Origin: Bacillota bacterium
Lineage (GTDB): Bacteria; Bacillota; Sulfobacillia; Sulfobacillales; Sulfobacillaceae
Assembly: GCA_021797635.1 (NCBI GenBank)
Contig: JAJZZI010000023.1
Coordinates: 1-52,611 of the forward strand
DNA: 52,611 nt
Direction of reading: 5' to 3'
Shown here: positions 39,966-51,583 of the stretch, piece after piece
Layout: every line of letters starts with the position of its first letter
Position numbering within the stretch: the stretch's first letter is position 1
Program-made: the position numbers and the translations under genes
Notes under the pieces: generated by a model
The model's database searches: none
What the model saw: the letters and a program-made list of their open reading frames with translations, nothing else
Told to the model about the DNA's origin: nothing

Positions 39966-40199
39966 ATGCCAACGACGGCCTTGATGGACCTGTTTTCGCG
40001 ATCGACTTCCATTCTGATTGACGTGGCCGGGGCAGTGTTCACCCTGGTAATGGTTTACGGAGGGATACGTCTGATGCTGGCCCATAACCCGAAGGCGGTC
40101 CAGGGATCTAAAGAAATTCTGGGAAGGGCGGCCATTGGATTGATCTTAATTCTGATGGTCGACGCATTGAAGAGCTTGTTGCAGTACATCGCGTCTTGA
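39966..40199 (+). CDS. VirB2/TrbC-like small membrane protein
   Basis: ATG 39966 lies directly downstream of AGGAGGAGG; the product is 77 residues with two membrane segments (about 20-40 and 55-74) separated by the short polar loop AHNPKAVQGSKEILGRAA. This is the size and layout of VirB2/TrbC-type pilin or pore subunits in Gram-positive type IV secretion systems, where the loop commonly reads G-D-P-x-K-V-x-x-A-K. The match is by architecture and context, not a firm motif. It opens the operon whose next genes are VirB6-, VirB3- and VirB4-like. Confidence 0.75.
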   Translation: MPTTALMDLFSRSTSILIDVAGAVFTLVMVYGGIRLMLAHNPKAVQGSKEILGRAAIGLILILMVDALKSLLQYIAS

Positions 40200-40211
40200 G
40201 GAGTCATGCTG

Positions 40212-40976
40212 ATGCTGTCGTCGTTTTCTCATTGGCTGACCCAATGGATTTTAAACCAGACCACCCACCTGAGTCTCGTGGTTTTCCGGCAGGTGATATT
40301 TGCTCCCTTGGCGTGGTCGAGTGGGGTCACAACGCTCTTTCATATCACTCGGGGGGTCGTCATGGCAGGCCTCGCGGCGGTGGCCGGTTGGGGATTTCTG
40401 TCCACGCTCTGGCCAGCTCTTTGGCCAGGTGGAGTCGCGCCCTCGCCGCTTAGAATGCTGCAGCGCGTGCTGACGGCAGCCATATTGACCTGGTTGGTCG
40501 TGCCGGCCGTTCAGTGGATGCTGGAGGTAAACAACGCCATCGTGCGCGAGATTCTCGCCAGCGCTCAGGGGTTTGCTCCTACCATCACAACTGGCCAGGC
40601 TTTGCTCTCCCCACTGCTGTCAGGGCTAATCGTCATCGTTTCGGCCCTGCTTCTGGTGTATCTAGGTATCTTTTATGCATTGCGGGTGGTGGAGATCTTC
40701 GTGCTTACCGCCCTATCACCGGTGATGTTGGCCTGGTGGGGCGTAACCGGAGACGCCAACGGGCTTGGCCGATGGGGTCGTGAAGTGCTAATTGCCATCT
40801 TCATTCAGTCCATCCATGCTGCCGTGTTTTGGCTCTATTTACACCTCGTCTATAGCACGGAGATTTCACAGTTTGAAGCGGTCGGGGTGCTTTTCTATAT
40901 GACCCGTGTTCCAGAGCAAGTTAGGCGACTATTAGGGTCCCCTGGGGTGGGGAGCGTGTTGATGCCATGGCGGTAA
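40212..40976 (+). CDS. VirB6/TrbL-like polytopic membrane protein
   Basis: About 254 residues with five or six membrane segments. ATG 40212 is eight bases after GGAG; ATG 40206 is in frame but very close to it. The region LRVVEIFVLTALSPVMLAWW followed by GRWGREVLIAIFIQSIHAAVF (about 160-205) is the conserved core seen in VirB6/TrbL and Gram-positive T4SS channel proteins. It probably forms the inner-membrane channel with the VirB3- and VirB4-like products. It overlaps the next gene by ten bases. Confidence 0.75.
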   Translation: MLSSFSHWLTQWILNQTTHLSLVVFRQVIFAPLAWSSGVTTLFHITRGVVMAGLAAVAGWGFLSTLWPALWPGGVAPSPLRMLQRVLTAAILTWLVVPAVQWMLEVNNAIVREILASAQGFAPTITTGQALLSPLLSGLIVIVSALLLVYLGIFYALRVVEIFVLTALSPVMLAWWGVTGDANGLGRWGREVLIAIFIQSIHAAVFWLYLHLVYSTEISQFEAVGVLFYMTRVPEQVRRLLGSPGVGSVLMPWR

Positions 40977-41254
40977 GACGCGTGGTACCGGTGCCACTGG
41001 AGCACCACCCCGAACTACTTTGGGGGCTTCGTACCATCGATCTTCCCTGGGTCGCCGGAGCGGTCATCATCAACGTCGTGTTGTGGCACCAGGATCTAGG
41101 TGGTTTAGAGGCCCGGCTGACGTTGATGGCGATACCTTCCGGCGTGGGAGTTGCCCTGGCCTGGATTCGCCTTTCTTCCCGTAGCCTGCCCGAGTGGATC
41201 TGGCTGTGGGCGCGATATCAACTTCGGCCCAAACGCTATGTCCACGGTGAATAG
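40967..41254 (+). CDS. PrgI/VirB3-like membrane protein
   Basis: A 95-residue protein from ATG 40967. A short cytoplasmic N-terminus with VPVPLEHHPELLWGLRTIDL is followed by two membrane segments (about 27-45 and 52-70) and a basic C-terminus YQLRPKRYVHGE. This matches the PrgI family that precedes VirB4 in Gram-positive T4SS loci and resembles VirB3. The assignment rests mostly on the layout and its position just before the VirB4-like genes. Confidence 0.7.
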   Translation: MAVRRVVPVPLEHHPELLWGLRTIDLPWVAGAVIINVVLWHQDLGGLEARLTLMAIPSGVGVALAWIRLSSRSLPEWIWLWARYQLRPKRYVHGE

Positions 41255-41275
41255 CCGCTTCGAAACAGGGCCACG

Positions 41276-41914
41276 GTGTACCCCAAGTGGCAGCTTGACC
41301 ACATTAGTGAAAGGATCGTGTTGGCTATGGTGACGATGAACAGACTGTTTCCCATTCGGGCGATAGGCCAAGGTATTTGTCTTCTCGATCGGGACCGCTT
41401 TACGGCCATCTTTGAGGCCGTTCCCATTACTTTCGCCCTGAAGTCCCCCAAAGAGCAAGATCGCTTGGTACAAAGTTATGTGCGTTTTTTGAACGGCCTT
41501 AACTTTCCCGTGGAGGTGTTGGTGCGGGCCGACAGCCTGCGCATGGACGACTATGTGGCGCAACTCAAGGCACACGAAAATGAGATTGAGGCTCATCTGC
41601 GCCCCTCCCTGGGTGACTACATCGAGTTCATTCAACAGAGTGCGTCGGTGCGCCATCTCATACGCCGACGATTTTATGTTTTGCTGTCATGGCGAGGCCA
41701 GGACACCAGGACACGCCCCTTGCAGCGCGGTGAGCGCTTGTGGGAAGAGGCGGAAAGGGAGTTGATTCGCAGGCAAGAGTTGGTGGAGCAGGGCCTACGG
41801 GATTTGGGCATCCGTCTGCGAGCGCTTAATGCCGAAGAGACCTTTTGCTTTGTCTACGCTGGCCTCGGGGGCGGAAACCCTCTGCCCAAAGGAGTAAGTT
41901 GGGCATGGGAATGA
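41276..41914 (+). CDS. VirB4 N-terminal domain-like protein (split VirB4)
   Basis: The 212 residues start at GTG 41276; ATG 41327 is an alternative. The sequence FPIRAIGQGICLLDRDRFTA then ALKSPKEQDRLVQSYVRFLN followed by a long amphipathic region resembles the N-terminal domain of VirB4/TraC-type ATPases, in which the element recurs ahead of the motor domain. The next gene overlaps its stop by a few bases and supplies the ATPase domain, so the usual single VirB4 polypeptide seems split in two. It has no P-loop. Function independent of VirB4 is possible. Confidence 0.65.
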   Translation: MYPKWQLDHISERIVLAMVTMNRLFPIRAIGQGICLLDRDRFTAIFEAVPITFALKSPKEQDRLVQSYVRFLNGLNFPVEVLVRADSLRMDDYVAQLKAHENEIEAHLRPSLGDYIEFIQQSASVRHLIRRRFYVLLSWRGQDTRTRPLQRGERLWEEAERELIRRQELVEQGLRDLGIRLRALNAEETFCFVYAGLGGGNPLPKGVSWAWE

Positions 41915-43584
41915 ACTGGCAGCCGGGGAACCGCCGTCACCAGAGCCCTGATTTAAGCCGCCTATGGCCTTCGTCTATTGAGTTTTTTCCGACGGAAGTT
42001 AAGCTGGGCGAGCGTTGGCTTCGAGTTTATTGTGCCGTAGGCTTCCCCCGAAACGTGGAACCAGGCTGGATGCTTCCTCTGTTTAGGTTTTCCCGCCCCC
42101 ATACCTTGCGATTTTACACGAGGGTTTTAGATTCGGGGGAGAGTCTCGGGCAGATGAAACGCCGCCTTATCATACAACGAGGAAGTGAGGCGGCCAACGT
42201 CAGCCTTGGCCGGTTGTCTAACCCTTTAATCTCTCAAGCCTTGGAGGACACGGATAGACTGCGCTATGAGGTGGCGCGGGGCGATAGCAAAATGGCCGAC
42301 GTATCACTGATCGCGGCCATTTGGGAAGATTCTCGACAAGCGTTGGAAGCTTCCGCACAACTCCTCCTCGGCGTTGCCGATGGTATGATGCTCGAACTCC
42401 GCTGCCTACGCTATCAACAGGAGAGTGGTTTATTGAATCTCCTCCCTGGCGGAAAATGGCCGGAACCCGTTCGTGAAATGGATACTGGGGCTTGGGCTAC
42501 GGGGTTTCCCTTTACTGGTGACGAGATTATGCATCAAAGCGGCCAAATCTGGGGAGATCACGGCATGAATCCATCGTGGGTTATCATCGATAGATTTCAA
42601 ATGCCCTCACCGCACTCCGTGATTTTGGGATGGTCGGGATCAGGCAAGAGTTATTTTGCCAAACTAGAGGCCCTGCGTAGCCGATATCGGGGCATACAAG
42701 TCGCGGTCATTGACCCCGAGGGCGAATACCAGGTGTTGCGTAAAGGCGGGGCCAGGTTGGTGAGAATAGGAATTGCGGGCGAAGAGCTTGGGTTCGACCC
42801 CTTTTCTTTGGATCCAAGTCAGAGTGAAAATTTCGACGGACAAGTGGAATTCATCCTGCGATTGTTACCTCGGCTCGTCGACGGCTGGTCAGATAGAAAC
42901 CAAAGTCGGGTGCTCCAGGTGATCTACCGCGACCAAGAATCGGAAGCGATGTCCTCTTCGCCTCGGGCCTGGATCGATCGCTTGTCGGAGATAGACGCTG
43001 ATACTGCTCAGTTGGCGGCAACGGCGATGGGCCGCTGGCACCAAGTAGCCGGTCGACCGCTTCTGGGTGTGAAGGCCAAACAGACAATCAGTGACGCCTT
43101 TGTAATCTACGACCTGAGTCACGTAAGCGATCGCTTGAAAAGTGCCGTGTATTTGGCGTTGGCGGAAATGCTTTCGCGGTCTATCGCTGACGGCCAGCGC
43201 CGTCTGATCATCATCGATGAAGCCTGGTATCTAGTGAACGACCCGGACACCGTGCCCTACCTCGAGACTTTGTTTCGGCGTGCTCGCAAGTGGGGTACTG
43301 CCATATCGCTGATTAGCCAAGACTTTGGCGATTTTACTCGAAGCCAATCAGCCGAGGTGTGTCTGAGAAATTCTCCGCTCGTATTGCTGCTTCGCCAACA
43401 TTCTCAGAGTCTAAACCAACTGGCCGAGGCACTCCACCTAAGTGCAACCGAGATCGAATGGCTGGCGAGTGCCGGTACCGGCCAAGGTTTGCTATTAGCC
43501 TCAGACGACCATGTGCCGTTAAACATTTGGTCGACCGAGTTGGAAGCTCGTGTCCTGGGAGCCCAGGAGCAAGGAGACAAGTAA
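41905..43584 (+). CDS. VirB4-like secretion ATPase
   Basis: Cytoplasmic motor ATPase of type IV secretion systems. ATG 41905 is about ten bases after GGAG; ATG 41911 forms an ATGA overlap with the upstream stop. The product is 559 residues. Walker A is LGWSGSGKSYFAKLE (about residue 240), followed by VIDPEGEYQVL, Walker B with LIIIDEAWYLVND, and the arginine-finger-like region FRRARKWGTAISLISQDFGDF, all as in VirB4/TraC. The N-terminal 200 residues are less conserved. No VirD4 coupling protein or relaxase is near. Confidence 0.88.
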   Translation: MGMNWQPGNRRHQSPDLSRLWPSSIEFFPTEVKLGERWLRVYCAVGFPRNVEPGWMLPLFRFSRPHTLRFYTRVLDSGESLGQMKRRLIIQRGSEAANVSLGRLSNPLISQALEDTDRLRYEVARGDSKMADVSLIAAIWEDSRQALEASAQLLLGVADGMMLELRCLRYQQESGLLNLLPGGKWPEPVREMDTGAWATGFPFTGDEIMHQSGQIWGDHGMNPSWVIIDRFQMPSPHSVILGWSGSGKSYFAKLEALRSRYRGIQVAVIDPEGEYQVLRKGGARLVRIGIAGEELGFDPFSLDPSQSENFDGQVEFILRLLPRLVDGWSDRNQSRVLQVIYRDQESEAMSSSPRAWIDRLSEIDADTAQLAATAMGRWHQVAGRPLLGVKAKQTISDAFVIYDLSHVSDRLKSAVYLALAEMLSRSIADGQRRLIIIDEAWYLVNDPDTVPYLETLFRRARKWGTAISLISQDFGDFTRSQSAEVCLRNSPLVLLLRQHSQSLNQLAEALHLSATEIEWLASAGTGQGLLLASDDHVPLNIWSTELEARVLGAQEQGDK

Positions 43585-43585
43585 C

Positions 43586-44143
43586 ATGACTAGTCGTGGT
43601 AAACTTCGTCAAACGGCGCCGATTGTGGCCACTTTGGTCACGGCGGCGACCATGGCCGGGGTAATGCTGCCGGGTTGGATTACCCCGGTTCCCCGCCTTC
43701 CCGTGGTAACCGCCACCGTGCCCGCGGGAACCCCGTTGACGGCGGCTGATTTTCGCTGGATTAAGGCCAATAAGGTACCGAGCTATCCCATGGGAAAGTC
43801 CGGCCCTGTGGCCCGATCGACCTTAACCGCCGGCGAAGTGCTGACCGCCGCCCTAGTGTCGACAGGTCGTCACGGTACCAAACCCCGCACGTTGGTGGAA
43901 GTGACTCCTAGCGTCAGTGCCGAAGCCAACTTGGGAAAGTGGGTCGATCGCGTCGAGGTGCTGGTCGTCAAGGCGGGTAGGATTATTTGGAACTCCGGTC
44001 CCTGTTCGGTGGTTTCATCGCCCACCTCCCTGTTAAGTGCAGGGTCGTCCACGATTGGCGTGTGGCTAAGTCCCAAGGCTGCGCTGACCTATACCAAGAC
44101 CGAGGGACTAGGCACCGTCAGCGTCATAGGTATCGCACCATGA
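43586..44143 (+). CDS. SAF-domain protein, CpaB/RcpC-like
   Basis: ATG 43586 follows AAGGAGA; the product is 185 residues. One N-terminal membrane segment (about 10-28) precedes a SAF domain with VVTATVPAGTPLTAADFRWI and the characteristic RSTLTAGEVLTAALVS (about 38-95), as in CpaB/RcpC proteins of Tad pilus assembly. The remaining C-terminal half is unusual. It marks the switch from T4SS-like to Tad-like genes in one overlapping transcription unit. Confidence 0.78.
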   Translation: MTSRGKLRQTAPIVATLVTAATMAGVMLPGWITPVPRLPVVTATVPAGTPLTAADFRWIKANKVPSYPMGKSGPVARSTLTAGEVLTAALVSTGRHGTKPRTLVEVTPSVSAEANLGKWVDRVEVLVVKAGRIIWNSGPCSVVSSPTSLLSAGSSTIGVWLSPKAALTYTKTEGLGTVSVIGIAP

Positions 44144-45141
44144 TTGTGGTAGCGAGTGGACACCAGGGCGTCGACGGCTACGTACAAGACCGGCCTAAGA
44201 GCGACGAGGTGATTATAGCCCGCCACTGGAACGAAGTGCTGGATGCAAAGGACCAGATGGATGCGCTCTTTTTAGGGAGAGACTTGCCGGGCTTGCCTTC
44301 TCCCCAGGTGGTATCCCAAGCGTTGCCGTCGGTAGAAACGGTGATTTGGGTCGACGAGCAAGAGGCTCGAACATGGTCTGAGGCAGCCGCTGAACAGTGG
44401 CAGATTTGGGCAGGATCCCTGGATCAAGGCCAGCTCGACAGTTGGTTAGACCGAAGTCGGCGTTCGAAGATGCGATTGGAATCATGTTGGGCGGTGGCGG
44501 CCGTCAGCGGCCAGATGTCACGGGAAGCTACCGTGGGATGGTTGGTGGAAATGTCGCTCGCGCAAGGTGGTCAAGGCGTTCTGGTCGACCTGGATTGGAA
44601 CGATCCCCAGACGACCTGGCACAGTCCCTGGGGAAGACCTGGATCCGATCTAACCGGGTACGAACATCTTGCAGCGGTACGCATGCCCTATGGCGTATTC
44701 GTTCCCGCGCCACCGCCCTGGATGATGCTGTTGGCACGGCCTGGACGCGAGGAGTTGCAGCGGCTACGCATGCACTATCCCGAGCATTGGCTCGGTTTTG
44801 ATATGGGTTCCGATCTACGAAACCCGCTGTGGACCACCGTGGCGGGTATGGTGGAACGGGTATACCTGGTGTGCCCAGGACGACCGTGGGCCAAAGCGTT
44901 AGCAGACGTCATCTCACTGTTTGAAGACCTTCGCTCAGAGCTGCGTTTGACTTTGTTAACACGATCTGGTGACCACGGTGAGTGGTTGCAGGCGTTTCGG
45001 AGTGAAACGCGTCAAGTGCTTGCCATAGGCGATCATGGCAGCGTGGCCGCTTCGTTGTGCGAAGTAACTAGCAAGCCTCAGAAGCGGAATTCGCGGTCCG
45101 TTTTCTCACGAATTGCAAAGGTCTGGCGGAAGACGACGTAG
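44140..45141 (+). CDS. TadZ/CpaE-like ParA-type protein with degenerate P-loop
   Basis: ATG 44140 overlaps the upstream stop (ATGA), giving 333 residues. The pattern CWAVAAVSGQMSREATVGWL and QGVLVDLDWNDPQTTWH (about 118-165) corresponds to the Walker A region and the following DLD motif of TadZ/CpaE proteins, which localise Tad machines at the cell pole. The canonical GGxGKT is replaced by AVSGQMSREAT, with no P-loop lysine, so ATP binding is doubtful. The first 110 residues are a receiver-like region without clear phospho-acceptor. Identification depends on context as well as pattern. Confidence 0.65.
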   Translation: MIVVASGHQGVDGYVQDRPKSDEVIIARHWNEVLDAKDQMDALFLGRDLPGLPSPQVVSQALPSVETVIWVDEQEARTWSEAAAEQWQIWAGSLDQGQLDSWLDRSRRSKMRLESCWAVAAVSGQMSREATVGWLVEMSLAQGGQGVLVDLDWNDPQTTWHSPWGRPGSDLTGYEHLAAVRMPYGVFVPAPPPWMMLLARPGREELQRLRMHYPEHWLGFDMGSDLRNPLWTTVAGMVERVYLVCPGRPWAKALADVISLFEDLRSELRLTLLTRSGDHGEWLQAFRSETRQVLAIGDHGSVAASLCEVTSKPQKRNSRSVFSRIAKVWRKTT

Positions 45142-45231
45142 CCTAAGTCGTCTGCCCTGCGTTATCCAGGGCGTTCAGCATGCTTTGGTACCAGTCCCTT
45201 TGGCAGGTAGGCGTGGATGCCGTGAAAGACC

Positions 45232-45432
45232 ATGAATGGCATTGTTTCCTCCCTCGTGTTGACGGGTGCCGACGCCGCGCATGCCGCCTTCTCTTGTGGC
45301 TTTCATGGGACCGGGCAGGAATCATGCGACGCCTTGTCGAACGTTGCTGGCAGGGCAATCAACGGCATCATCGGGTGGGGTACAGCGAGCGCATTGGCAA
45401 GGAGACCGAGGCATGCGAGTTTTGTGGCTTAG
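45232..45432 (+). CDS. candidate small protein between the TadZ-like and GGDEF genes
   Basis: I do not recognise it. The 66-residue frame starts at ATG 45232 with only a weak ribosome binding site. It is rich in Gly/Ala/Ser, has two cysteines (about residues 22 and 32), and its first fifty codons favour G/C at the third position, as in neighbouring genes. A possible short membrane segment is GRAINGIIGWGTASAL. The last seven codons overlap the cyclase start. It may be a chance frame. Confidence 0.35.
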   Translation: MNGIVSSLVLTGADAAHAAFSCGFHGTGQESCDALSNVAGRAINGIIGWGTASALARRPRHASFVA

Positions 45433-47017
45433 CGCGTTGTTTGGCGTTCCTATCATATGGATCTTTCATTGGAGTATGGTCACTTTCATCAACAACATTC
45501 AAACGACGGTGGCGCGCCTGGTAACCTTCATCCACTGGACGTTTTTAGGTATGCTGGCAGCAGTCTTCGCGATGCAGGTGTTGCCGGTCAAGGATGCCGC
45601 GTGGATTGCCATCTATGTGATCGGAACGCTGGGGGTCTTTTTGGCGGCCTTTGGCAGCCATCTACACTTAAACCTTTTAGGTTGGATCGAGCGATGGCCG
45701 CGGGGCCTGGGGGTGGCGATGGCCTATCTCTGGATATTGCCGGGGTTGTGGACACTGATATCCCGGCATAACCTATTTAATGCCGATATATTTTCTCGAA
45801 GAGGGTTTTGGGTAGTCCCCACCTATAATCGGCCATTTCATGTGGCGATGATCCTCGCGGTTGTGCTAACGGGTTCATTACTGGTGGGTCTGTGGACGGT
45901 GTGGAGGCACCAGGGCGGGCATCGCAGAGCCAAGACGCTGACAGGATTATTCTGGGGAATGGCAGGATTGTCTGCTTGCCTTTTGGTTATGGGAGCGCTG
46001 TTGCCTCAGACGGCACCCATCTGGATGCCCCCCTATCCCTACTTGATAGGCATGCTGTGGTGGGCGGCAACCATTCGTTGGACCATCGTGCGCTATGAGT
46101 TGTTGCCCTCTCACTTGCAGCGGTACCGCGCCTTATTCACGCTCAGCCCCGTTCCCATCATCATGGTCGAGCGAAGTGGGCGTATTGTAGATCAAAATCC
46201 GGCGGCGTCCACGCTGTTCACCGGGAACTACCGTTCGTGGGCGGATATTTGTGCCAAGAGCCTTCCAGAGGACACGTGGTCTCGGTTTCGCGGTGCGTGG
46301 GCGCACCGGAGTCCCATCGAGGCATGGTCGCTGGAGTGGCAACAAGAAGACGGTAATCTTCGCACGCTCGTCGTGGATGGACAATACTTATCCATCGGCG
46401 AGCGGACCTACTGCATTCTGGCGCTTCATGACCATACGATGCAAGCAAAAGCCCACGAAACCTTAGTGAGGATGGTGGACCAAGACCCGCTCACGGGCGT
46501 GTTGAATCGACGCGCGTTTCAACGCCGCCTAGAAGAGGCCATCCGTGACCACGATGCCTCCTGGGAGCAGTTCGCGGTGTTCTTTGTCGATTGTGATGAT
46601 TTCAAGCATTTTAATGACGAGAGTGGCCATTTGATGGGGGATATTGTGCTTCAGGAGGTGGCCGCACGGCTCCACGCGGGTTTGCGACCGATAGATTGTG
46701 TCAGTCGATTTGGCGGGGATGAGTTTACTGTGTTGGTCTCTAACATTCGGAGTGTGGACGAGGGCCTTTTGGTTCGCGATCGGATTTTGCAGCGATGTAT
46801 GGAACCGATTATGGTGGAGGAGGGAAGGTCGGAAGTGATTTCCATAAGTGTGGGATGGAGTCGCTATCCCGATGATGGGCAAAATGTCGAAGCGCTTCTG
46901 GATGCGGCAGACCGTGGAATGTATCGGATGAAGCGGAGAAGGCAGAGCATGGGGGAGAATTACTTAGCACCGATGCCAGAGGTTCCCGAGGCACCTGGGT
47001 CGGCCGCTCCCTCTTAA
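45413..47017 (+). CDS. seven-TM PAS-GGDEF diguanylate cyclase
   Basis: Makes c-di-GMP from two GTP. ATG 45413 lies seven bases after AAGGAGA; the product is 534 residues. Residues about 1-235 form seven membrane segments (a 7TM sensor-like module). A PAS-like domain (about 240-345, FTLSPVPIIMVERSGRIVDQ) follows. The GGDEF domain starts near DQDPLTGVLNRRAF and has an intact active site RFGGDEF. An inhibitory I-site, RPID, lies five residues before GGDEF, so product feedback is likely. Between the Tad-like genes, it may control the secretion machine. Confidence 0.9.
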   Translation: MRVLWLSALFGVPIIWIFHWSMVTFINNIQTTVARLVTFIHWTFLGMLAAVFAMQVLPVKDAAWIAIYVIGTLGVFLAAFGSHLHLNLLGWIERWPRGLGVAMAYLWILPGLWTLISRHNLFNADIFSRRGFWVVPTYNRPFHVAMILAVVLTGSLLVGLWTVWRHQGGHRRAKTLTGLFWGMAGLSACLLVMGALLPQTAPIWMPPYPYLIGMLWWAATIRWTIVRYELLPSHLQRYRALFTLSPVPIIMVERSGRIVDQNPAASTLFTGNYRSWADICAKSLPEDTWSRFRGAWAHRSPIEAWSLEWQQEDGNLRTLVVDGQYLSIGERTYCILALHDHTMQAKAHETLVRMVDQDPLTGVLNRRAFQRRLEEAIRDHDASWEQFAVFFVDCDDFKHFNDESGHLMGDIVLQEVAARLHAGLRPIDCVSRFGGDEFTVLVSNIRSVDEGLLVRDRILQRCMEPIMVEEGRSEVISISVGWSRYPDDGQNVEALLDAADRGMYRMKRRRQSMGENYLAPMPEVPEAPGSAAPS

Positions 47018-47570
47018 ATAGGGGCATTGAACATAATACCCGCGTATGCCCCCTGCTAGGCGAAGCTGGAGGGGGTCTTAAAGACTACCACGCTGACGTG
47101 GTGATTGCCGATTGGAGAGCCGGAGAGCCGATGACCCCCACGAGCTAGAACGGTCCTAAATCGCGCCTGGCGAGCTTTGGCGCTGGTGGCGAAATCCGCG
47201 ACCTAATATTGTCGCGCGTTACGTCGTGCACGCGGCGATAAATCACCATTTCTCAATCCGAATGTTTATTGGAAAAGATTTGTGGGTATCTGGCGACGAG
47301 TTTTGGCTAGGCGGATATGCCAGTAATCGCGGTATCCAGATTGCCGTTCTTCACGACAGGAGTCTTGTTGAATGGCCTGGACCTCCCGTCAAGATCATGA
47401 TCAGGGGTCCACGTGAATCCCTCGAAAGCTTCGGTACCCAAGTTATGGGTAGCCAGTTTGCTGATAATCTCCGTCTCCTTCGTTCACATCTGGACAACCG
47501 TGAGGTCTGGCCCTCTCAGATTGGCAAAGTCCAAGACTTGGCGAAAGTGTCGGCACGTCTCGTGATGTCA

Positions 47571-47750
47571 TCAAGTAGTGGTGCCATCGGCGATGGTGAA
47601 GCGGACGTAGACACGCTGCACTGGGCCGGCTGAGGCATAGCCACGGCACAAAGTGACCCCGAGGTACGCAGAGCGGTAGAGGTTGTGGTGCCATCGGTAG
47701 ATCAGGATGGTTTGATATGGGCCATGGAACGTGATGTTCTTCACAAACAC
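47571..47750 (-). CDS. candidate 59-residue ORF, strongly C-ending codons
   Basis: Minus-strand frame from GTG (complement of 47748-47750) to TGA at 47571-47573. I recognise no family; the product is aromatic-rich (ILIYRWHHNLYRSAYLG) with a beta-like pattern. Its codons end in C or G far more often than the opposing plus-strand frame, suggesting real or once-real coding sequence. There is no good ribosome binding site, and an adjoining minus-strand frame upstream ends a few bases into it, so it may be the 3' part of a frameshifted gene. Confidence 0.3.
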   Translation of the reverse strand: MFVKNITFHGPYQTILIYRWHHNLYRSAYLGVTLCRGYASAGPVQRVYVRFTIADGTTT

Positions 47751-47980
47751 TGACTAATCAGGAAACCTACGAGGATGAACATCGCTGCTGGCGCCCCACC
47801 TTTGACCTTAATACGAAGACCATACGTGGGGAGAGTGACCTGACTACACGGTGCGTCTCGGAACCTAGACGAAGCGGCCAGGAGCCAGGCTTGGTCACAT
47901 ACGGGGTGGCCACTACTGCACTCGGAAGAAAAGATCGGGCGTCCTTCACGGCCGCCGCCCCCTTTACCCCACCCGGCCTG

Positions 47981-48456
47981 GTAGGCCGGAAGAATGGACC
48001 TCCCGCCTCCTAAACATTCCGGACGTGGGCCTCTCGACGCATCCGGCTCCTGCGAGCCATTCACGGCGCCAAGCGACGCAGAGCTCCCCCGGCCCTTCCC
48101 GAAGGGTGCCAGGGGTCTCGTTGAGTTCGCCAGCCCCCTTTGCGCCCGGCGCATTACACGCCCTTCTTGACGACGACGGGATGGTCCGCCTCTGGCGAGA
48201 GCATCGATCCTTTCCTCACTTTCGGGTACGATCGCCTTGTTGGACACCAGGTATAGGGGGTTCGCTTCGCATCGCCGCCAGCTTCTCACCTTCTACGCTT
48301 AAGCCCAAACCAGTGCGTGCCCACTTGACGCTGACTACCGCGAAGGCTGTAAGGAGGGGTCGCCCTCGCTCTTCTGGAGAGATGAACAAACCCTCCATTT
48401 CGATATATTTTGACATCGTCGGACTGTACTTGCGACGCTGACATGGGCCTTTGCAC
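47981..48456 (-). mobile_element. ORF-less group II intron-like element (probable)
   Basis: On the minus strand a domain V-like hairpin (48015-48049) is preceded by about 400 bases of G-rich structured sequence and followed by a DVI-like stem (with GGCGGGAGG and TTCTTCCGGCC) ending near CCTAC at 47981. A GUGC-type 5' end fits GTGCAA at 48456, giving about 475 bases, the size of an intron lacking its reverse transcriptase. There is no reverse-transcriptase frame inside. The ends are inferred; only the domain V is well supported, and even that is imperfect. Confidence 0.5.
48015..48049 (-). ncRNA. group II intron domain V-like hairpin
   Basis: Read on the minus strand it begins GAGCCGGATGC, has a GAGA (GNRA) loop, and returns with CCCACGTCCGG. 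This is the layout of bacterial domain V: AGC catalytic triad near the 5' end, the stem CCGGA/TCCGG, the ACG bulge side, and a tetraloop. One apical pair is mismatched and the bottom of the 3' strand (AATG rather than TTC) is divergent, so it may be inactive. Confidence 0.6.
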
Positions 48457-49028
48457 GCCCCTTTATGGTCCATACCTGACCTCTCATGAAGCCTTTTTCC
48501 TCACGGTCGCGGCCGAGGCCGTTGTGCCTCAGCCGGGCCTCCCCTCACCTCGAGTATACCGTCGTGACGCAATATTCGCGGTGAAGCTCACCTCGCGGCT
48601 TTGCCTGGGAAAGGGAATGCGTGGGTGAGGGCGTGTCATACGGATTTTGTGTATGCTCCGCCACGCTATGTAGATACTTCGCCATCATCTCGAAGGCCGG
48701 TTTGATCCGGCACTGCATTATACAAAACGATGGCCCGCCGTGTTCCGAACGGGCGTTGTGCTCCCGCTGCATGCGGCATCCAAACTGCGGATTTTGGCTA
48801 AGGAGCGCGTTGTCCTCACCTTCGGCCATCGAGTCGACCACGGTGTGCTGCGGCGGCGGCGGGAAACCAACCCGGCAAGAAAATTTGGACAGGTTTTCTG
48901 GAAATAGTTCTCGCTAAGATGAATGCATTGTCGGCCCTAAGATACTACCAAGGCATGGACGTACGCCGGGTCGACTCGCTTAGGGATCCAAATTGACGAG
49001 AACAAGAGTATGGAATGGGGCGGACACG

Positions 49029-50240
49029 ATGGCATACTTTCATCAACAGTGGAATCCAAAGGCCAAGCCTGGGAAAGGCGCTGAGACGGCTCAAGAAGAG
49101 GTTACCGACCTCGGTCGGGCGGTTGTTCGTTGGCAGGAAAGCTTGCAAGAGCAATACCCAGACCTTCTTGGTCACTTGGTCTGGAACGGGGAACGGCTTG
49201 CCGAATTGGAACGGGCCGCCCAGCACATCATTGAGAATGACCCGTGGGTTGACGGAAATTTGGTGTCTCTTTATCGGCGCTCGCTGATTAATCGTGTGAC
49301 AGGCTTGGGCCCATTAGATGAGCTGCTCTTGGATGAATCGGTTAACGATATCATGGTTAATGGGCCTGACCGCGTCTTTTGCGATAGGAACGGGGTGATT
49401 GAACCCGTCTCCTTGCAATTTGGAGACGCCCAGGCGGTGATTTCTCTGGCGCAGCGGCTTGCTGCTCGGGCAGGGAGAATGGTTAATACGGAGGTGCCGC
49501 TGTGTGACGCTGAGCTTTTCGACGGGTCCAGGATTCACTGTGCAATGCCTCCGGTCGCGGACGTACCCTGCATTACCATCCGCCGTGGCCGACAAATTCC
49601 CCTCACCGTCGAACATTGTTTGGCCAGCGGAACCTTTAGCCCCGAGCTCTGGCACGACTTGCACCAAATGGTCGCCGAGCGGCTGAATATCATTGTGGCA
49701 GGGGGTGCGGGGTCAGGGAAGACGTCGTTGCTGCGCCTGTTGGCCAGCGCTATTTCGCCATCGGAGCGGATCGTCGTGATTGAAGACGTACGTGAATTGA
49801 AACTATCGCAAAAGAATCTGGTGAGTTTGGAGACGACGGATCGCTATGGGTCCGAAGCATTATTGAATAACGCGCTACGCATGCGTCCTGACCGCATCTT
49901 GGTGGGGGAGGTGCGTGGCGCCGAGGTTTTGGCGTTGATGGAGGCAATGTCGACGGGCCATCCTGGGTCATTGTCAACCGTGCATAGCCGGGCGGGAGGT
50001 ATCGAGACCCTACAGCGTTTAGCGCGCATCGCGGTCCGTCATGGTAGTGGACTGGGTTTCACGGAAATGATGCAACAGGTTCGGAATACCGTCGATGTCA
50101 TCGTGTACACCACGAGGTACGGCGACGGCAGCCGGAGGGTATCGGACGTCAGTTTGGTAGGCCCCGATCAAATTCAACCGCTGTGGCAGTATCAAAGTGT
50201 TTCTGGAGAGTTTGTACGGTTTGGAAAGCTTCCATGTTAG
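49029..50240 (+). CDS. CpaF/TadA-type secretion ATPase (VirB11 superfamily)
   Basis: Hexameric motor for Tad pilus or type II/IV secretion. ATG 49029 gives 403 residues; TTG 48993 extends it without homology. The N-terminal domain contains GLGPLDELLLDESVNDIMVN (about 85-105), the CpaF hallmark. Walker A is IVAGGAGSGKTSLLRLL (near residue 225), then VVIEDVRELKL, the Walker B/Asp box ALRMRPDRILVGEVRGAE, and the His box STGHPGSLSTVHS. It is overlapped by tadB. It follows a 2-kb gap from the rest of the locus. Confidence 0.93.
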   Translation: MAYFHQQWNPKAKPGKGAETAQEEVTDLGRAVVRWQESLQEQYPDLLGHLVWNGERLAELERAAQHIIENDPWVDGNLVSLYRRSLINRVTGLGPLDELLLDESVNDIMVNGPDRVFCDRNGVIEPVSLQFGDAQAVISLAQRLAARAGRMVNTEVPLCDAELFDGSRIHCAMPPVADVPCITIRRGRQIPLTVEHCLASGTFSPELWHDLHQMVAERLNIIVAGGAGSGKTSLLRLLASAISPSERIVVIEDVRELKLSQKNLVSLETTDRYGSEALLNNALRMRPDRILVGEVRGAEVLALMEAMSTGHPGSLSTVHSRAGGIETLQRLARIAVRHGSGLGFTEMMQQVRNTVDVIVYTTRYGDGSRRVSDVSLVGPDQIQPLWQYQSVSGEFVRFGKLPC

Positions 50241-50929
50241 AGACCCTCGAATTCTCCCTATTTGTGGGACTAGGCGTATGGCAATGGCTTGAGTGCCGTT
50301 GGTGGTCTTGGGTCTTTCCCGCATCGCTTTTGGTAGGAGCTCTGGTGGGCAACGGTTGGATCGTGCTGTGGTTTGGCACTTTCGGCCTCTCGGTTTCGCG
50401 GCTGTTGGCGGCGTTGCGTTTGGAAGCCACTCAAAACCGCAATCAAATCCGAACCGAGGTGTTCTTGCAGCGCCTTCGGCAGAATGTCTCGATTTCCAGG
50501 GGAGGGTTAACTTCGGCATTGGCTGCCGTCTCCCTTCCAGCAGGAATTACCCCGAGCGAGCCGACGCTGGTGTTAAATCAGTTGGCTACCATCTGGGATT
50601 CGGAACCCTTACGCCGCTTAGGTGCCATCGTCGATGCGGCAAGGCACCATGGCGGGTCCCTTGCCTTGGTTATCGACGGTCTGTTAGCGCGGATGATGCG
50701 TGATCGTCGCCGGCGGCAGAGTCATCGGGCCGAAGAGGCTGCTCAGCGGAGCAGTGTTCTTGTCTTGGGTGTTGTACCCATACCGATATTCCTGAGTTTT
50801 TCTTGGTTTGCGCCCGAATTTCATCGCGTGCTGCAAAATTCCTGGTCTGGCCATCTAGCCATCTTGTGGATAGCGGTATCGACGTTTATTGCGAACGAAA
50901 TCTTACGCTGGCACGTTGTCGAACGATGA
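50234..50929 (+). CDS. TadB-like type II secretion F-domain protein
   Basis: ATG 50234 overlaps the cpaF stop by seven bases; the product is 231 residues. The N-terminus has two membrane segments, then a cytoplasmic T2SSF region (about 75-165) with the pattern LGAIVDAARHHGGSLALVID, close to the TadB signature, and two C-terminal membrane segments. It is the inner-membrane platform partner of CpaF and TadC. Confidence 0.85.
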   Translation: MLETLEFSLFVGLGVWQWLECRWWSWVFPASLLVGALVGNGWIVLWFGTFGLSVSRLLAALRLEATQNRNQIRTEVFLQRLRQNVSISRGGLTSALAAVSLPAGITPSEPTLVLNQLATIWDSEPLRRLGAIVDAARHHGGSLALVIDGLLARMMRDRRRRQSHRAEEAAQRSSVLVLGVVPIPIFLSFSWFAPEFHRVLQNSWSGHLAILWIAVSTFIANEILRWHVVER

Positions 50930-50944
50930 GGGAGGTAGACCTAC

Positions 50945-51583
50945 GTGGCATGGATAGCCAGTCTTGGTGCAGGACTGTTGTGGCTTCAGTTCTTTGGGGC
51001 TAACCTTGCCTCCGCACTGTGGCTGCCCTTGGGATGGAGCGTTTGGGCTGCCCTTACGCGCCACTGGTTATGGCTTTGCATCAGTCTCGTGGTTCCCGGC
51101 CTGGGACTAGGCAGGCGTCGACCAAGACCGGGGAATCTCAGGACGCGCCGTCGGCAACTGATTGAGCTGTGGGCGATGGTGGGGCTTTACCTTACGGCCG
51201 GTATGGACTTATGGTCAGCGGTAGAAGAGGCAGTCGCTATCGGGCCATTAGTTGAGTCAGAGATTCGGGAATTTAGTCACCGAATCGCGGTAGAGCGCGA
51301 CCCGGTGGAAGCCATTGCCGAGTTTTGCGCCCGCATCCCTGGGCCCGAATCCGAAGTCGTGGCCACCATGATTCATCACGGCTACCATCATGGTATTGCC
51401 ACCAGTGACGTAATCGCTCAGGCGGGCGAAATGGAAGATCATTTGGCCTTTGAGAGCGAGTTGCAGCGTCGACAGGATCCGCTTTGGCTCACGATTATTC
51501 CTGCGGTGATGCTGCTCAATGTTCTGGCTGTGTTTGCTATGCCTATGGCAGTGACCATGTTGCACTCCTGGCATGGCATTTGA
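50945..51583 (+). CDS. TadC-like type II secretion F-domain protein
   Basis: GTG 50945 follows GGGAGG; the product is 212 residues. Two N-terminal membrane segments precede a cytoplasmic T2SSF region (about 75-180) with LTAGMDLWSAVEEAV and HHGYHHGIATSDVIAQ, then a C-terminal membrane segment. It pairs with TadB as the platform of the machine and is the last recognisable gene of the locus. No TadE/F, Flp pilin or prepilin peptidase follows before the convergent cyclophilin gene. Confidence 0.85.
   Translation: MAWIASLGAGLLWLQFFGANLASALWLPLGWSVWAALTRHWLWLCISLVVPGLGLGRRRPRPGNLRTRRRQLIELWAMVGLYLTAGMDLWSAVEEAVAIGPLVESEIREFSHRIAVERDPVEAIAEFCARIPGPESEVVATMIHHGYHHGIATSDVIAQAGEMEDHLAFESELQRRQDPLWLTIIPAVMLLNVLAVFAMPMAVTMLHSWHGI

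Follow-up and report, generated by a model that had tools for sequence, protein, structure and literature searches.

What kind of apparatus is encoded where genes of a type IV secretion system (T4SS) are joined to genes of a Tad pilus, and do the two sets belong to one machine? The question is raised by the window analysed here, a stretch of 52,611 nucleotides (contig JAJZZI010000023.1 of assembly GCA_021797635.1) from a genome of the Sulfobacillales, an order of acid-loving Gram-positive bacteria. Between positions 39,966 and 51,583 of the plus strand it carries VirB2-, VirB6-, VirB3- and VirB4-like genes followed by genes of the CpaB, TadZ, CpaF, TadB and TadC families. Here we show that this trs/MPF_FATA-like translocon core and its Tad motor form one conserved, vertically inherited operon at a fixed chromosomal place, and we infer that the two halves work as one apparatus.

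Gram-positive T4SSs have been reviewed as universally lacking VirB11 homologs (PMC12857230), and the Ced/Ted paper was aware of no case outside archaea in which conjugation machinery had been domesticated for DNA transfer (PMC9905601); relaxase-poor chromosomal T4SSs have now been described in Patescibacteria (PMC12102498). The hybrid operon bears both on the stated absence of VirB11 and on the restriction of domestication to archaea, and it does so across a whole order. A literature search that left out most subscription journals found no paper on a chromosomal hybrid, and the chromosomal, relaxase-free, order-wide version appears to be undescribed so far.

A T4SS core and a Tad motor in one locus

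The initial annotation of this DNA had proposed a hybrid T4SS and Tad gene set, and both the listing of open reading frames (ORFs) and the profile matches bear this out, with all the named genes on a single strand at the coordinates given below. Seven genes, from VirB2 through TadZ, touch or overlap between 39,966 and 45,141; downstream of tadZ lie a GGDEF gene, a 2-kb stretch without conserved genes and then CpaF, TadB and TadC. Taken by themselves, the window copies of the pilin, VirB4 and CpaF are firmly placed by profiles; those of VirB6 and CpaB have marginal support and those of TadB and the VirB3-like protein weak support, while the window copies of TadZ and TadC gave no profile match on their own. 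The weak assignments gained support from family alignments of members from the same order. The profile searches that the annotation had proposed as a check place the products of 39,966–43,584 in T4SS families.

The first gene (39,966–40,199) encodes a VirB2-like T4SS pilin of 77 amino acids, which scores over the PF18895 cut-off in the window and matches this model in 37/37 family members. The protein is exactly 77 amino acids long in most genomes of the order, with identities of ~50–94% within the order and a ratio of nonsynonymous to synonymous substitution rates (dN/dS) of 0–0.05. Its AlphaFold2 (AF2) model is a helical hairpin (H2-40/H42-76, pLDDT 79) for which Foldseek returned no match. 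The VirB6/TrbL-like polytopic membrane protein that follows (40,206–40,976, 256 amino acids) falls just below threshold in the window (E = 9e-6, 25.7 bits against a cut-off of 27), and TrbL_4 (PF19597) is matched by 21 of the 32 family members. The small membrane protein of 95 amino acids at 40,967–41,254 is VirB3/PrgI-like: its model matches are weak, with the N-terminus of SCO6880 (the PrgI/VirB3 region) recognised in 17/31 members, and it has a fixed place between VirB6 and VirB4 and the size expected for VirB3/PrgI.

VirB4 is encoded by two genes. The first (41,336–41,914) matches residues 12–159 and the second (41,905–43,584; 214.6 bits) residues 192–734 of the same CD1110 VirB4 model; within the N-terminal family, 14/30 members match the TrsD model and 15/30 the CD1110 model. 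The start codon of the ATPase half is preceded by AAAGGAG, which lies inside the end of the preceding gene, and throughout the order the halves are encoded separately (34/35 genomes have them in different frames), as they are on plasmid pL15. A frameshift or sequencing error is therefore ruled out, since the split is common to all relatives and pL15 and the second gene has its own ribosome-binding site. Such a split is already known from TrsD/TrsE-type systems and is not novel. In the ATPase half, the Walker A lysine and the Walker B DE are invariant in 37/37 sequences.

The Tad half begins with a CpaB/RcpC-like SAF-domain protein (43,586–44,143). In the window this is a bare SAF match (PF08666 at the cut-off), whereas TIGR03177 is recognised in 8 of 34 family members, the best at 3e-7. 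The product of 44,140–45,141 is TadZ/CpaE-like. Its N-terminus has a receiver-like fold resembling Spo0F/CheY (AF2 and Foldseek, TMt ~0.6, in a model whose overall confidence is low), and the model is good in the first 110 residues and weak beyond. By weak matches the remainder is ParA-like; Walker A is not conserved across the order, and one Asp is invariant in 37/37. The protein thus seems to have the TadZ/CpaE layout, with a probable pseudo-ATPase. CpaF (49,029–50,240) is a CpaF/TadA ATPase of the VirB11 superfamily (TIGR03819, E = 8e-71; VirB11 model TIGR02788, 188 bits), with GxGKT invariant in 35/35. The platform proteins were placed through their families: T2SSF is found in 15/29 members for the TadB-like protein (50,234–50,929; best 1.6e-6, window copy weak) and in 12/30 for the TadC-like protein (50,945–51,583; best 4.3e-6). 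Searches of PDB sequences with the family profiles gave nothing useful. No Rfam family was found in 36.0–52.6 kb, and base composition is uniform across the window at ~56% GC.

Conservation and inheritance of the locus

The two halves co-occur in relatives, a condition that the initial annotation had set: a survey of 151 genomes of the class, 39 of them from the same order, found the same gene order in 37 of the 39. At identities of at least 37%, the VirB4 ATPase half (VirB4-C) was matched in 37/39 same-order genomes, covering about 11 genera or more in three families, and CpaF orthologues are present in 35 of these 37 locus-bearing genomes. The order VirB2-VirB6-VirB3-VirB4N-VirB4C-CpaB-TadZ is complete in 35/37, the other two being cut by contig ends. 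VirB4-C and CpaB lie within 150 bp of each other in 37/37, and CpaB and TadZ are adjacent in 36/37, even where CpaF-TadB-TadC has moved off. This last block is 24–30 kb away in one genus (complete genomes G071, G113 and G132), inverted in G032, about 4 kb off in G127 and the window, and on another contig in other genomes. TadZ and CpaF are adjacent (≤400 bp) in 22 genomes, including those of a deep family (f3), and contiguity is therefore probably ancestral. In many genomes the locus lies downstream of gatA-gatB and of genes named by sequence inspection as a methyltransferase, an amino-acid permease and a thioesterase.

Phylogenetic comparison gave a consistent picture. The VirB4-C sequences of the order form one clade (100/100). 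The hybrid CpaF sequences do so too (100/100), and stand separate from the classical TadA that these genomes encode. VirB4-C and CpaF have correlated distance matrices (r = 0.87, with 0/500 permutations as high), and against GatB the values for VirB4-C and CpaF are 0.73 and 0.57. Within-genus pairs give dN/dS of ~0–0.26 for all ten genes, lowest in the pilin and the VirB4 halves. Because inheritance is concordant, dN/dS is low and the ATPase motifs are invariant, the sequences indicate that the locus is a functioning, vertically inherited chromosomal system and no relic. Chance adjacency and operon decay are ruled out by gene order and dN/dS, and a recent mobile element by the lack of foreign composition and the syntenic housekeeping flanks. 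Taken with the order-wide gene order, vertical inheritance and purifying selection very strongly support the proposal that this is a monoderm apparatus in its own right, a hybrid in which the two types of motor share one locus.

One relative (G079; L092/L093) has the entire hybrid operon twice in tandem, and in part of the second copy the reading frames are broken.

Parts encoded outside the locus

The initial annotation listed relaxase and VirD4 among the absent components. At the locus this stands: no relaxase was recognised among all ORFs of more than 50 amino acids in 36.0–52.6 kb (the whole genome was not searched), the operon contains no coupling protein or wall hydrolase, and the annotated genes that flank it in relatives have housekeeping roles. 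Elsewhere in the genome and in most relatives, however, there is a weak VirD4-like gene. In the source genome this is a PF02534 match at G000:C77:7863-8738 within a 539-residue frame; similar frames of ~480–550 residues occur in most genomes of the order, in some of them 10–15 kb from a classical Tad locus. Going by the weak PF02534 match, this protein is a possible coupling protein of the hybrid.

Flp pilin, TadE/F and prepilin peptidase had likewise been thought absent, which is correct for the locus but not for the lineage. An A24 prepilin peptidase was found in 30/30 genomes searched, the source copy being unlinked to the operon, between aroE and aroC on contig C95. No TadE or Flp_Fap matches were obtained in the source genome (G000) or in G101. 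Low-scoring TadE matches led to an unannotated orphan cluster, in which a gene for a 64-residue class-III prepilin is followed by TadE-like and TadF-like genes. The prepilin consists of a leader and then G|NVFIENGIWIIVVVLAMIMPIEALRNALVNAFGQITQNLTTIQ, and its mature form has 43 residues; it is nearly invariant and has no Pfam match. A profile search found it, whole or in part, in 37/39 same-order genomes and in 0/7 others. The 77-residue VirB2-like protein, which had been suggested as the subunit of the apparatus, is thus probably not the sole filament subunit, given that the order also has this class-III prepilin with TadE/TadF and a peptidase.

Which motor would serve the orphan pilin? Several genomes of the order also carry a separate classical Tad locus, and the hybrid CpaF is the single T2SSE-family ATPase found in G000 and G101. 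The best argument that the hybrid motor serves this pilin is G101, because it has the pilin and the peptidase and no other T2SSE ATPase was found there. A hidden classical Flp locus in the source genome, with the hybrid CpaF as its motor, was considered and rejected, there being no Flp_Fap or TadE match and a single T2SSE ATPase.

ComEC/Rec2 (PF03772) was found in 0/30 genomes searched (27 from the same order, including the source genome, and 3 others from the same class), with positive controls. Ordinary transformation is therefore unlikely, and a competence pilus feeding ComEC was rejected because none of these 30 genomes gave a ComEC match.

In several genomes the orphan pilin gene is split within its membrane-segment codons (L246 5850-7578, L247 5797-5892, L248, L249, L250, L252, L253, L256, L257, L258, L260 and L262), with the halves 155 kb apart in G071. 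The split halves bear inverted CCTTACGCGATCA / TGATCGCGTAAGG arms, and a gene for a large serine recombinase lies beside a pilin half in L246, L258 and L262 (with Resolvase/Recombinase domains in L246 and L262). On this sequence pattern, the pilin gene looks like an attachment site of serine-integrase elements. The C-terminus of the TadE-like protein, YHHFPMW, is nearly invariant (L196–L201), a constraint that may be explained by the same DNA also encoding the overlapping prepilin leader of the TadF-like protein, MSTITSRCG.

Comparison with known systems

The plasmids pL15 and pY0017 have been described as carrying both T4SS and type II secretion system homologs, including CpaF/TadB/TadC (PMC6803676). 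The pairing itself thus has a precedent in these plasmids, and what appears new is its chromosomal, relaxase-free, order-wide form. On pL15, from Sulfobacillus thermotolerans, we find CpaF, TadB, TadC, TadE/F-like and CpaB-like genes together with the relaxase MobL, VirD4, TrbL, a VirB3-like gene, a split VirB4 and a transglycosylase. The pL15/pY0017 conjugation region and the Kr1 plasmid-like region resemble the hybrid in having VirB6/TrbL, a VirB3-like protein, a TrsD-like protein plus TraC, CpaF, TadB, TadC and a CpaB-like protein in one element. Unlike the hybrid, pL15 has MobL, VirD4, a transglycosylase and its own pilin-like genes, and the gene order differs; its VirB4 is ~24% identical to that of the hybrid and belongs to another VirB4 clade. 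The VirD4 gene of pL15 (L289 29675-33856) appears to be interrupted by a reverse transcriptase/maturase gene, probably of a group II intron.

Further pairings were seen in other genomes. One (G521, L182) has a row of VirD4, a pilin-like gene, VirB6, a small protein, a two-piece VirB4, an M23 peptidase, CpaB, ParA, CpaF, TadB, TadC and TadE-like and TadF-like genes; two others (G154/G200, L176/L177) have a chromosomal VirB6-VirB4-SAF-CpaF-TadB-TadC-TadE-like set without VirD4, and G500 (L179) is similar. In these four genomes VirB4, VirB6, CpaB and CpaF (with TadB/TadC in G154/G200) were assigned by profile, the other genes by inspection. In the VirB4 tree, where "no CpaF" labels refer to the fetched stretches only, pL15 and the hybrids of other members of the phylum fall in at least four places. 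These placements suggest that several lineages acquired the T4SS-Tad combination independently or retained it.

With monoderm MPF_FATA/trs-type T4SSs the hybrid shares the split between TrsD and an ATPase VirB4, a TrbL-like VirB6 and, by weak matches, a PrgI/VirB3-like protein, but it has in addition a VirB2 pilin and an ATPase of the VirB11 superfamily, and no relaxase, VirB1 or VirB8 is recognised at its locus. With CpaF in 35/37 genomes, it departs from the description of Gram-positive T4SSs as having no VirB11-type ATPase. With the Tad/Flp pilus it has in common CpaF-TadB-TadC with CpaB and TadZ and, in the lineage, a class-III pilin, TadE/F and an A24 peptidase; however, the motor genes of the hybrid stand in an operon with VirB2/3/4/6, the pilins are unlinked and TadZ has no Walker A.

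The archaeal Ced/Ted and Ups systems share with the hybrid a chromosomal VirB2/VirB4/VirB6-like trio without a known relaxase (for the hybrid, none at the locus) (PMC9905601). Ted has a ParA/MinD-like partner and Ced cooperates with the Ups type IV filament (PMC9905601), arrangements to which we liken the hybrid as seen through its genes. The hybrid differs in being bacterial, with both halves in one operon and no recognised direct relationship to Ced/Ted. The Patescibacteria T4SSs are, like the hybrid, monoderm, chromosomal and mostly without relaxase, and share PF18895 VirB2-like pilins, VirB4, TrsD, VirB6 and PrgI (weakly matched in the hybrid); the text of that paper makes no mention of Tad (PMC12102498). 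A plasmid of the monoderm Cutibacterium acnes combines a Flp-pilus (Tad) locus with a gene of the VirB4 family, but as separate loci and plasmid-borne (PMC5696575).

Proposed function and alternatives

What, then, might the hybrid do? We tentatively favour the reading that it is conjugation machinery which the lineage has domesticated, lacking a relaxase and equipped with a Tad motor of its own; it would probably serve contact-dependent DNA exchange. In archaea, the domesticated VirB2/4/6 sets of Ced and Ted have no known relaxase, and Ced acts alongside a type IV filament (PMC9905601). In Micrococcus luteus, DNA uptake has been linked to Tad pili (PMC5696575 on Angelov et al.; PMC6370729). 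DNA exchange is preferred to an adhesive appendage because no ComEC was found, the gene set is Ced/Ted-like and Tad pili have this link to DNA uptake. By the same analogy, the hybrid may be a bacterial counterpart of archaeal Ups, an aggregation filament, combined with Ced, a VirB2/4/6-like DNA importer.

In such a machine, TadZ and CpaB would position CpaF and TadB/TadC, and these would extend and perhaps retract a thin class-III filament. This filament, assembled from the orphan pilin with TadE/TadF once the A24 peptidase has acted, would bring cells together. VirB4, aided by VirB6, VirB3 and the hairpin pilin VirB2, would then carry a polymer through the membrane; the likeliest polymer is single-stranded chromosomal DNA passing between kin cells. 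With greater reserve, we suggest that the order might use the hybrid as a DNA-exchange apparatus in place of ComEC-type competence, and that this could be the first case of a chromosomal T4SS in a monoderm that runs with an ATPase of the VirB11 superfamily. A nearly invariant, previously unannotated class-III pilin in an order where no ComEC was found makes DNA exchange among these acidophiles directly testable.

Several points weigh against DNA exchange by a single machine. CpaF was not found in two genomes (G130 and G140) that have the T4SS half. No relaxase, VirB1 or VirB8 was recognised at the locus; for VirD4 there is a single candidate, weakly matched and unlinked to the operon. The orphan pilin was not found in the source assembly with either a profile or a degenerate DNA pattern, which reflects a gap or a loss, and it is split or decayed in several genomes; where a classical Tad locus is present, we infer that the hybrid, and not that locus, serves this pilin. 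CpaF-TadB-TadC can move away without loss, so that the coupling of the halves may be loose. Substrate, filament and transfer are predictions from the genes.

The strongest alternative, possible but on balance unlikely, is an adhesion or aggregation appendage, in which VirB2-type and/or class-III filaments serve attachment to minerals and biofilm, and VirB4 and VirB6 act in pilus assembly only, with no DNA moved. Such an appendage would suit a locus without recognised relaxase, coupling protein, VirB1 or VirB8, where purifying selection is strongest on VirB2. Adhesion is typical of Tad pili, certain T4SSs that have no VirD4 also produce adhesive pili (PMC12857230), and the private insertion of the window is a gene of the GGDEF class, often tied to adhesion. 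It fits poorly with a nearest mobile relative that is a conjugative plasmid set and with the full conservation of the VirB4 ATPase half, and in several genomes a separate classical Tad locus could already serve adhesion.

Protein secretion, with the T4SS core exporting proteins and the Tad part acting as a pseudopilus piston, is improbable: both T4SSs and type IV filament systems include protein exporters and no DNA-processing gene lies nearby, but no cargo-like gene is conserved alongside the operon, which also lacks a type IV coupling protein for substrate recruitment. We give slightly less credence still to the idea of two unrelated machines brought into one operon by chance or regulation, namely a T4SS and a Tad motor for pilins encoded elsewhere, with no physical coupling. 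The detachment of CpaF-TadB-TadC in about a dozen genomes and the unlinked pilin and peptidase genes speak for it; CpaB and TadZ, useless without a Tad motor, nevertheless stay beside VirB4, and the same pairing recurs in several other VirB4 lineages and on pL15. A decaying relic of an integrated conjugative element is very improbable, and purifying selection across the order already refutes it there. The locus has lost relaxase, VirD4 and lysin, and the second copy in G079 is apparently degenerating, but the operon persists at a syntenic site in 37 genomes of three families with low dN/dS and intact motifs, and the window is uniform at ~56% GC.

The interval between tadZ and cpaF

The GGDEF gene and the gap that follows it are private to the source genome, and in its nearest relatives (G143 and G135) tadZ runs into cpaF. 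The gene (45,413–47,017; GGDEF match 1.7e-38) encodes a membrane-PAS-GGDEF protein outside the conserved machine. The private stretch as a whole covers 3.9 kb (45,142–49,028) and resembles the rest of the window in composition.

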